DNA from: an archaeon
Lineage (GTDB): Archaea > Asgardarchaeota > Heimdallarchaeia > Heimdallarchaeales > Kariarchaeaceae
Reading direction: 5' to 3'
Length of the DNA stretch: 44,174 nucleotides
Assembly: GCA_024280435.1 (NCBI GenBank)
Contig: JAJRQD010000323.1
Span: 1 to 44,174, forward strand
Shown here: piece after piece, positions 5,059 through 30,434 of the stretch
Numbering within the stretch: the first letter of the stretch is position 1
Layout: each line of letters begins with the position of its first letter
Made by a program: the position numbers and the translations under genes
Notes under the pieces: model-generated
What the model saw: the letters and a program-made list of their open reading frames with translations, nothing else
Database searches by the model: none
Told to the model about the DNA's origin: nothing

Positions 5059-5295
5059 ATGGGTTGGAACTATAAATTGAGTGAAGACGTGAATTTAAGA
5101 GAGATCATCTCTGTACTGAGACAATTAGCAGATCGACATGCTAAAAGATTGCCAGTCTCTCCGAAAGAGGTTCAGAAAGCAAAGTCAATTGCTGCTAAAT
5201 TTTATCTTAGCCATACAAATCGCAAACTGACATTGAACAATGAACAATTTCAATTGGTTATTGATATTCTTAGGATAGATGACACATTCAAATGA
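5059..5295 (+). CDS. Small hypothetical helical protein
   Basis: A 78-residue product, rich in charged residues and predicted largely helical (LREIISVLRQLADRHAKR, then KEVQKAKSIAAKFYL). No family is recognised. The start is supported by an ATATTTAA box at 5031-5038, about 24 bases before the ATG, typical of a leaderless archaeal transcript. It stands alone between the phosphoribosyltransferase gene and the candidate RNA locus. Confidence 0.65.
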   Translation: MGWNYKLSEDVNLREIISVLRQLADRHAKRLPVSPKEVQKAKSIAAKFYLSHTNRKLTLNNEQFQLVIDILRIDDTFK

Positions 5296-5514
5296 TAATC
5301 AAAACATAAATTTTTAAAAATCTTAACTTATTAATATTGAATTCAGTAAATAGGTAATTATTATGTTATAGCCTAATTATACATATATTATCAATTTAGT
5401 AAATATTCTTTGTTTATATCAGCATGTTATATTATCATATAATATATGTGGATATATCAATTGTTATGCAAAAAATAAAATAAGTTTATATAGGTTATCA
5501 TCTTTATAACAATT
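5296..5514. other. AT-rich spacer holding the promoter of the candidate RNA
   Basis: No open frame or repeat stands out. The right end carries TTTATATA at 5485-5492, which lies 23-30 bases before the start of the stem at 5515 and is placed like an archaeal TATA box for that RNA. Confidence 0.5.
5485..5492 (+). promoter_or_regulatory. TATA box of the candidate structured RNA
   Basis: TTTATATA is centred about 27 bases before the first base of the predicted terminal stem (5515), the expected archaeal TATA-to-start spacing. No start codon with an open frame follows, so the promoter appears to serve a non-coding transcript. Confidence 0.5.
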
Positions 5515-5670
5515 GAACCTGCGTGTGCAATATTTAAGCGAAAGTTGTAATAATTGTTTGCGTAAATTTGAGAATCCTAAATTCTTATGAATAAGGAGCT
5601 GTGGATAAATGTGTGTACCACAATAATCTCAATTCAGTTCTCAAGGGGTAGAGCTAAATAACGTAGGTTC
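5515..5670 (+). ncRNA. Candidate structured non-coding RNA, about 156 nt
   Basis: The ends GAACCTGCGT (5515-5524) and ACGTAGGTTC (5661-5670) form a ten-pair stem with one G-U pair. Inside, read by eye: GCAA/TTGC (5527-5530 with 5558-5561) enclosing a GAAA tetraloop at 5540-5543; TTGAGA/TCTCAA (5568-5573 with 5627-5632) closing two hairpins, TCCT..ATTC/GAAT..AGGA (5575-5597) and TGTGG/CCACA (5600-5622); and GTTCT/AGAGC (5637-5654). A TATA box sits 27 bases upstream and CCTTTTCT follows immediately. The region is visibly less AT-rich than its flanks and has no open frame. It does not match tRNA, 5S, SRP or RNase P RNA in any signature I recognise. It could alternatively be a leader element of pyrE, which begins 61 bases later, but pyrE has its own TATA-like box. 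Confidence 0.55.
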
Positions 5671-5678
5671 CCTTTTCT
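5671..5678 (+). terminator. T-rich end of the candidate RNA
   Basis: CCTTTTCT follows the closing stem of the 5515-5670 RNA directly. Archaeal RNA polymerase terminates at T runs without needing a hairpin, so this is a plausible 3' end. Confidence 0.4.
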
Positions 5679-5731
5679 AATTACTATATATGGATAAACA
5701 ATCTCATAAATATACATAAGATAATTAAACT

Positions 5732-6331
5732 GTGTCTATTATTGAATTATTACACAGTATCTCCTCTATAAAAATCGGAGAATTCAAATTAAAATCAGGA
5801 GATATATCACCATTTTACATGGATTTAAGATTGATACCATCACATCCCACTCTATTTGAACTTGTCTTATCAGAGTATTGCAATCTAGTAAATTCTCTTG
5901 ATTATAAACCCGATGCAATTGCAGGAATAATGTCTGCAGGTGTTCCATTCGCAACAGGCATCGCAATAAGAGAGAAAATACCATTGTTACAGATTAGAGC
6001 TGAGAAGAAGGCTCATGGTACAAAAAAAATGATTGAGGGGATTTTACCCAATAAAGGCTCGAAAATTGTGTTGATAGACGATTTGATCTCAACTGGAGTA
6101 TCTAAACTGATGCCAACTAAAATACTGAGAGATAAGGGGATGATTGTGGATGATTTAATTGTATTGATTGATAGAACTAATAGTGATGGAAAAATGATAC
6201 TGAAAAATAATAAACTCAGATTACATTCAAGTTTCACACTAGAACATATATTACATGAACTTAAGGATTTGAATATTCCAACAAAAGAATTAAAGATAAT
6301 TAATGAAGCGATAAAAATATGGGATAGTTAA
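5732..6331 (+). CDS. pyrE: Orotate phosphoribosyltransferase PyrE
   Basis: PyrE joins orotate to PRPP to give OMP in pyrimidine synthesis. The 199-residue product has the FKLKSGDISPFYMDLR opening (18-33), the IAGIMSAGVPFATGIA segment (63-78), the catalytic loop RAEKKAHGTKKMIEG (89-103, with R89, K92, K93 and H95) and the PRPP motif VLIDDLISTG (113-122). It starts with GTG at 5732; a TATA-like ATAAATATAC about 24 bases upstream suggests a leaderless transcript separate from the RNA upstream. Length is normal for the family. Confidence 0.95.
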   Translation: MSIIELLHSISSIKIGEFKLKSGDISPFYMDLRLIPSHPTLFELVLSEYCNLVNSLDYKPDAIAGIMSAGVPFATGIAIREKIPLLQIRAEKKAHGTKKMIEGILPNKGSKIVLIDDLISTGVSKLMPTKILRDKGMIVDDLIVLIDRTNSDGKMILKNNKLRLHSSFTLEHILHELKDLNIPTKELKIINEAIKIWDS

Positions 6332-6482: not shown

Positions 6483-6960
6483 ATGGGTAGATTGGAAAAA
6501 TATGGTATATTCCCACGTAGTAAGTATTCAATGGATGTATACTTGCACATTGCTTATTTGGCAGGTGAAAATCGTAGTTTGGATTATATCGTGGAACACA
6601 TGAGAAAAGACTTTCCTGCTCTTGATGATGCACATCTCAGCAGAAAATTTGTGGAACGTGTACTACTGCTGACTTCAACAGTAGTTACTCTGTATCTTCC
6701 AATGATTATCATTTGAATGGGTAGGTGAGTTACTAAGTGTAATTGCAGGAATTGGTGATTTTAATCAATGGGGTGATATCCTGACACAAATACCACTTGA
6801 CAATTGGGTTACTGAATTAAATAAATTAAGAGTTCGTGAGAAAAGAAGAAGGTCCGAAATCAAAACAGCACGGTGGTTAGCCAGTCTAGATCCACTTGGC
6901 CTTCAGCGTCAATTGAAAATGATGCTTATAATGGATTTTACTAAGGAGGTGGTTAGTTAA
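6483..6960 (+). pseudogene. Frameshifted gene of unknown function
   Basis: Three successive frames look coding. The first runs from the ATG at 6483 (MGRLEKYGIFPRSKYSMDVY...) and stays convincing to about 6660. The middle part reads best one frame over (about 6659-6713, TTADFNSSYSVSSNDYHL). The third frame is open from 6706 (clearly coding from about 6715) to the TAA at 6958-6960 (EWVGELLSVIAG... to ...TKEVVS). The joined product would be about 155 residues, with a basic helix (LRVREKRRRSE) near the end. Both shifts go in the same direction. An AAGGAGGT sequence at 6944-6951 overlaps the end, yet no gene starts after it. This is either a decayed gene that has lost its downstream partner or a live gene with sequencing indels. 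No family is recognised. Confidence 0.55.
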
Positions 6961-7445
6961 ACAGCAAAATCATAAATTATTTTTACAGATACATCAGTGG
7001 TCTATTGACGAAAAATTCAAAATTTATCAAATATGATCAGTTATGAAACTACATGTGTTTATAATTATTTTCCTTTATATTCCGGTTTCAGTTGATTATT
7101 CATCATTTTTGGATTTTAATAAATAGAATTAGTTTAAATACTATTTTTCCAATGTTATTGGTGTTATTTTGATAATATTTACATCCTCCCAGGATCATAT
7201 TGTGATATTCTTGATCAGATGGGTAAACATCCCCTTTAATTCACTATTAACCTTATTTGGTTATTAACCTCTTAAAATTGTGAATTGCAACAAATATCCT
7301 CGACAATTTTTTTATAGTTATTTGTCATAAAATAAATAGCATATTTAATTTGATTTGATTAATATCAATTGAGTTTTATTTGTGGTTCATTTGATTTTAA
7401 TTTAATGCAAATTTTGTATTATCTGATGATAAATGGATGTGATAA
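6961..7445. other. Long AT-rich non-coding stretch
   Basis: No convincing gene. A 27-codon frame at 7043-7126 begins like a signal peptide (MKLHVFIIIFLYIPVSV) but ends at once. TATTAACCT occurs twice, 16 bases apart, near 7246-7270. The stretch separates the frameshifted gene from the three-gene operon and may be the remains of lost genes. Confidence 0.4.
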
Positions 7446-7523
7446 ATCATTAGTCGAATTGATGAATTTGGTTTAGAAGAATTAAGAGATTTACTAAAAG
7501 AAGGTAAAGAATTTAATGAGATC

Positions 7524-22773: not shown

Positions 22774-23353
22774 AAAGATTATTAATTATAGGAAGAAGTC
22801 TCAAAATAATACATTGAAAATAGAAAAGTAGACTGAAAATAATATGAAATTATACAAAATACAGAACCTTAATATCATTATAGCAGTTATTCTTATTTTG
22901 ATTAAGGATCAATAAATTTTACAAAATTAGAATTTATAAATATTGGATCTCAATTACCGCCTTTCATCATTCAGAATACTATATATTTGAATATTTAGCT
23001 CTATTTATGTTTTAAATTACTTATTTTTTAAAAGTTTAATTAATAAAGTAAAAAACACGCTTTCTAATATACATTTTATAGTATCGAAATAGAATGTAAA
23101 TTTTCAAAAAAAATTTATGCATAATTACTGTGCAATAATATAGTTTTTACTTTATTGATCTAAATTCGATATATCTTATTTCGATAGTTCAATTTAAAAT
23201 TAATTGTCCAGAAGCCATCTCTCATCAAAATTATAAAAAATATACTTATTTTATTGATTTAAATAAATATAATTTTAAACAAAAAAATAAAATTGAATTA
23301 ATGATTTGAACATTTATTCAAAGAATTTCTTCATTTTATAACTGTCCACTAAA
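22774..23353. other. Long AT-rich region upstream of the oxidase operon
   Basis: About 600 bases without a gene. The only marked structure is the pair of inverted 10-base sites at 23082-23091 and 23177-23186. It is unusually long for this compact window and probably holds the control region of the oxidase genes. Confidence 0.45.
23082..23186. promoter_or_regulatory. Inverted pair of TATCGAAATA sites upstream of oxidase genes
   Basis: TATCGAAATA (23082-23091) and its exact reverse complement TATTTCGATA (23177-23186) flank an 85-base interval 200-300 bases before the oxidase start. Related copies occur before the blue copper gene (27963-27972, one mismatch) and the lipocalin-like gene (30425-30434, exact). 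A shared regulator is inferred. Confidence 0.35.
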
Positions 23354-30042: not shown

Positions 30043-30180
30043 TATAAAAAAGTATAAATTAATTACTTTTATTGTTAAAATGTAGCTACAATCGAGTAGA
30101 ATATTAATATTAAAAAAATATTGATCTTTTGAAAAATCCTTTTTCAAAAAGTTTAAATTTAAGTAGAATATATTTAATTT
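30043..30180. other. Spacer holding the promoter of the candidate C-rich RNA
   Basis: AT-rich with no gene. TTTAAATT at 30152-30159 lies about 26 bases before 30181, where the hairpin RNA would begin. Confidence 0.4.
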
Positions 30181-30248
30181 GTCTCAAAGGCACTTTATTT
30201 TAATCGCCTTTGGGACCTCCCTCCCCCAGATTATTTCTGTGTTTTTTT
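30181..30248 (+). ncRNA. Candidate small C-rich hairpin RNA
   Basis: GTCTCAAAGGC (30181-30191) and GCCTTTGGGAC (30206-30216) form an 11-pair stem with a 14-base loop; a pyrimidine tract CCTCCCTCCCCC follows (30216-30227), then a small CAGA/TCTG hairpin (30227-30239) and a seven-T run (30242-30248). A TATA-like TTTAAATT sits 26 bases before the stem. The GC content stands out sharply from the flanks. The CCTCC tract could pair with GGAGG ribosome-binding sites. It could instead be a strong terminator for the transglutaminase-like gene 138 bases upstream. Confidence 0.45.
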
Positions 30249-30424
30249 ATTTAATCATTTTGAAATTATAGTGTTATAATTGATGTGTATAATTATTTAT
30301 TACCATAAAAATTATTATCAGCTAGAATTCATGTATAATCACCTGCATTCATATAATTAGAAAAATAGTTATTTAAATAATAAATATACAAACTTATAGA
30401 ATTATTAAAAAATGCATTATCAAT

Positions 30425-30434
30425 TATCGAAATA
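30425..30434. promoter_or_regulatory. TATCGAAATA motif directly before the lipocalin-like gene
   Basis: An exact copy of the 10-base motif found as an inverted pair upstream of the oxidase operon; it abuts the TTG start at 30435, where a bound protein would block transcription or initiation. Confidence 0.3.

Follow-up and report, generated by a model that had tools for sequence, protein, structure and literature searches.

Known archaeal RNAs and the layout of the locus

Among the closest described counterparts of the locus reported here are the archaeal SRP and RNase P RNA genes, both of which are encoded in the same genome (G000). The SRP RNA gene (RF01857, contig C322) has a layout like that of our candidate, with a TATA-like box, complementary ends and a T-tract, but it is 308 nt long, has 46% G+C and carries the conserved GGAAG motif that the candidate lacks. 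Similarly, the RNase P RNA gene (RF00373, contig C302, 279 nt) resembles the candidate in its upstream TATA-like box and closing P1 stem, while its GAAAGTC is missing from the candidate. The TATA-like boxes of these two genes, CTTTAATA and CTTTATAT, are located about 29–30 nt before the mature 5′ ends; this distinguishes both genes from most of the 30 tRNA genes (L183–L212), where the 60 nt ahead of the gene show no clear TATA hexamer. Archaeal box C/D and H/ACA guide RNAs are small and intergenic like the candidate, which differs from them in having neither a C/D box nor an Rfam match. Orphan archaeal sRNAs detected by screening intergenic regions, for example those of Pyrococcus abyssi (PMC3124441), are likewise intergenic, non-coding and outside known families, but in contrast to the candidate they were characterised experimentally.

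The stretch of DNA analysed, hereafter the window, comprises 44,174 nucleotides and represents contig 29 of a 4.0-Mb genome that is 84% complete. Among public genomes, MAGs assigned to Heimdallarchaeota or Kariarchaeota come closest, at approximately 50% protein identity, in line with the Asgard archaeon named in the preliminary description. Here, the segment 5515–5670 sits in a 436-nt gap between a gene for a 78-aa protein and pyrE, 61 nt before the GTG start of pyrE and on the same strand. The features of the locus are as follows:

5059–5295, + strand: conserved small protein of 78 aa, the upstream neighbour, without Pfam or NCBIfam family
5457–5516, no strand assigned: inverted repeat TCAATTGTTAT...ATAACAATTGA with 11 bp arms around the TATA box, a possible, weak regulator site
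5485–5492, + strand: TATA box TTTATATA, exact match, putative promoter of the RNA, 22 nt before P1
5515–5670, + strand: candidate structured non-coding RNA of 156 nt, proposed from the fold z-score, the G+C contrast and the lack of an Rfam match
5515–5524, + strand: 5′ strand of the closing stem P1, GAACCTGCGT
5525–5561, + strand: GAAA-capped arm, pair probabilities of only about 0.5, within chance
5568–5632, + strand: three-way junction with hairpins 5575–5597 and 5600–5622, pair probabilities of 0.7–0.9, within chance
5636–5655, + strand: 3′ hairpin, pair probabilities of about 0.9
5661–5670, + strand: 3′ strand of P1, ACGTAGGTTC
5671–5678, + strand: U4 tract CCTTTTCT, putative transcription terminator by its sequence
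5684–5691, + strand: TATATATG, possible separate pyrE promoter, weak TATA match (6/8), 41–48 nt before pyrE
5732–6331, + strand: pyrE, orotate phosphoribosyltransferase, GTG start, TIGR00336 above cut-off and PF00156

The box TTTATATA, of which the window has three copies on the + strand and two on the − strand, was described earlier as a TATA box at the right distance, and its position before the stem agrees with a putative promoter. The T-rich end noted after the stem was also found, as CCTTTTCT. In Methanococcus, the archaeal termination factor aCPSF1 needs at least a U4 tract for binding, as tested on a two-tract RNA, and non-coding RNAs of this organism have short U-tracts; one aCPSF1 from Lokiarchaeota behaves similarly (PMC8716108). 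The weaker box TATATATG would fit separate transcription of the RNA and pyrE, without proving it. Regarding the inverted repeat around the promoter-like box, shuffling the gap 500 times gave a comparable repeat in 29 cases, and the repeat itself is unique in the genome; it may represent an operator, although one near chance level.

Closing stem, fold and base composition

Folding of the transcript 5511–5680 showed P1 as ten pairs, including one G-U, with pair probabilities of 0.87–1.00, so that the ten-pair closing stem seen by eye is present exactly at the ends of the segment. The minimum free energy (MFE) of the 156-nt segment is −38.9 kcal/mol with a z-score of −3.17, and none of 200 dinucleotide shuffles folded as well. 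This thermodynamic calculation also recovered the parts drawn by eye in the preliminary description: the GNRA-capped arm (GAAA), a three-way junction carrying two hairpins, and the final hairpin. However, when P1 is left out (5525–5660), the z-score falls to −1.01 and 33 of 200 shuffles fold equally well. Therefore, the z-score of the whole segment essentially reflects P1, and the GAAA arm, the junction and the hairpins are by themselves not evidence for an RNA.

A stem equal to P1 or better was obtained in only one of 300 shuffles of the 436-nt gap. Over a shuffled 44-kb window, stems of this quality spanning 100–200 nt appear zero times or once, and the real window contains three further ones on the + strand, all positioned within genes. 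P1 thus exceeds chance locally, though not everywhere. The + strand folds to −38.9 compared with −28.4 for the − strand, while the z-scores of both strands are almost identical. Since the SRP RNA of the same genome has a fold z-score of +0.25, this measure neither proves nor excludes an RNA at 5515–5670.

Two other gaps in the window exceed the segment in z-score strength. The AT-rich gap 30043–30434 folds with z-scores down to −4.75 (at 30095 on the + strand); in it, the hairpin GTCTCAAAGGC...GCCTTTGGGAC has a T-run some way downstream and resembles a terminator. At 23006–23185, upstream of a gene for a cytochrome-oxidase-like subunit, there is a long near-perfect inverted repeat, AATAAAGTAAAAA / TTTTTACTTTATT, with a z-score of −4.15.

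RNA genes of archaea are known to stand out as G+C islands where the intergenic DNA is AT-rich. At 35% G+C, the segment contrasts with 16% in 5296–5514 and 20% in 5671–5731, and the edges of this island coincide with the stem. The remaining gaps in the window average 23%; among them, only 6717–7523 attains 35%. That gap resembles a decayed gene, and the overlapping region 6483–6970 is probably a frameshifted or decayed protein gene, in which a 77-aa frame is followed by more coding-like sequence with coding-like G+C. The known RNAs of the same genome are richer in G+C than the segment (SRP RNA 46%, RNase P RNA 45%, sampled tRNAs 51–65%), and the segment is close to the coding DNA of the genome in this respect.

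The claim that the segment holds no open frame stood, the longest frame with an ATG, GTG or TTG start overlapping it being 27 aa. One minus-strand frame has just two stops across 83 codons, a pattern seen twice among the 516 frames taken from other gaps. The G+C contents at the three frame positions (29/38/38%) bear no resemblance to those of pyrE (39/31/26%). Homology searches gave no support to a coding remnant: the six frames yielded no credible Pfam family, and the most open frame had no protein relative.

Search for known families and relatives

Across the window, every Rfam family stayed below its gathering score, and for the segment itself no plausible family of Rfam 15, including riboswitches and ribozymes, was obtained even at E=10. 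The covariance-model search thereby agrees with the earlier statement that the segment matches none of the common archaeal RNAs. The window contains no match to RF00373 and none to RF01857, whose GGAAG motif is also missing from the segment. Because the RNase P RNA (127.6 bits on C302) and the SRP RNA are encoded elsewhere in the genome, the segment is neither of them. A box C/D guide RNA was rejected, with neither a RUGAUGA nor a CUGA box within 5511–5675; of the H/ACA features, there is a single ACA, at 5620 within a stem, and no Rfam match. The window contains no tRNA genes.

Searches of 38 relatives and of 228 genomes from the phylum with a one-sequence covariance model retrieved only the segment itself; weak hits of this model coincide with parts of coding frames. 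DNA similarity searches of the 38 genomes gave short chance matches only, those inspected lying inside reading frames or at their margins. The segment is present as a single copy in its genome, and phage and plasmid collections, as well as viral contigs searched for both P1 strands, showed no match. The loci beside pyrE in related genomes, which had been suggested as the place to look for homologs, yielded no RNA, and neither did those where the upstream phosphoribosyltransferase gene is paired with the small-protein gene.

A single other genome of the genus was available. There, pyrE starts within about 10 nt of the stop codon of the upstream gene, and a converging gene lies 47 nt beyond the end of the small protein. 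Owing to this tight spacing beside both flanking genes, there is no room for the RNA at either place. In this genome, the gap that separates the phosphoribosyltransferase from the small protein showed no structure (z-score of 0.33). As a matched control, a one-sequence model was built from 160 nt of the SRP RNA of our genome. This control detected the same-genus ortholog at E=1.3e-11, but its E-values rose to 0.22 and 2.6 in two further genera of this family, with nothing in the remaining genomes. Therefore, a missing homolog counts within the genus, where the available genome is 68% complete, and is uninformative further out. An RNA conserved like the SRP RNA should have shown up in that genome, unless its locus belongs to the third that is missing.

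Competing readings and significance

Combined, the promoter-like box, P1, the U-tract, the G+C island and the lack of both an open frame and an Rfam family agree with an independent non-coding RNA, which is the best-supported reading. We tentatively favour a lineage-restricted, independently transcribed small RNA of approximately 160 nt, with belief and doubt about evenly divided. The similar layout of the SRP RNA gene and the better folding of the + strand would also support it. On the other side stand the chance-level internal structure, the nearly equal strand z-scores and a G+C content like that of coding DNA and below that of known RNAs, together with the lack of a detected homolog in 228 genomes and of room beside the flanking genes in the same-genus genome. 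The preliminary description held that everything about the segment fits an independent RNA; this stands for the promoter-like box, P1, the U-tract, the G+C island and the missing frame and family, but is overstated for the rest, given that the arms are within chance, that G+C is 35% against 45–65% in known RNAs, that the segment is absent beside both flanking genes in the same-genus genome and that the searches detected no homolog.

If this small RNA exists, transcription would start near 5511–5515, driven by the TATA box at 5485, and would end in the U-tract after 5670. P1 would then hold both RNA ends together and may shield them against exonucleases, while the internal hairpins could be presented for a trans-acting role through protein or RNA binding.

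The reading that survives next best is that the segment has no RNA function and that P1 is a chance stem in an AT-rich gap, perhaps what remains of a small gene that decayed or was transient. An equal stem is expected about once per 44 kb, the internal fold lies at chance level and conservation was not found; a small gene of this kind would also explain the coding-like G+C and is consistent with the minus-strand frame with two stops in 83 codons (2/516). However, the tested frames have no protein relative, the G+C by frame position (29/38/38%) is unlike that of pyrE (39/31/26%), and stem, TATA box and U-tract coincide at matching distances, and we regard this explanation as somewhat unlikely.

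Alternatively, transcription from 5485 may continue into pyrE, making the segment a structured cis-acting 5′ leader in which the stem and U-tract act as a conditional, attenuator-like terminator. The shared strand, the 61 nt to the GTG start and the order of stem and U-tract are consistent with this, as is the placement of the strong box upstream of the RNA, with only a weak (6/8) match in pyrE's own gap. Nevertheless, that weaker box, TATATATG, does lie 41–48 nt before pyrE, the RNA would be expected to end at the U-tract that follows the stem, the same-genus pyrE has no space for such a leader, and no known riboswitch family matches, which together make a leader clearly unlikely. A MITE-like non-autonomous mobile element with P1 as its 10 bp terminal inverted repeat is barely credible, being disfavoured by the single copy in the genome and by the absence of a visible flanking target duplication.

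The independent small RNA might, in a bolder form, represent a class of its own, in which structured, end-paired RNAs act in trans and are confined to one Kariarchaeaceae-like Heimdallarchaeia lineage, possibly linked to nucleotide metabolism by its place beside pyrE, but we consider this very improbable. The candidate is a plausible orphan RNA gene, as yet unproven, and at present one among several such plausible candidates, of the kind that every AT-rich archaeal genome supplies. Should it prove real, a lineage near the ancestry of eukaryotes would have a non-coding RNA that belongs to no known family, and the locus would offer a concrete and cheap target for a transcript test.
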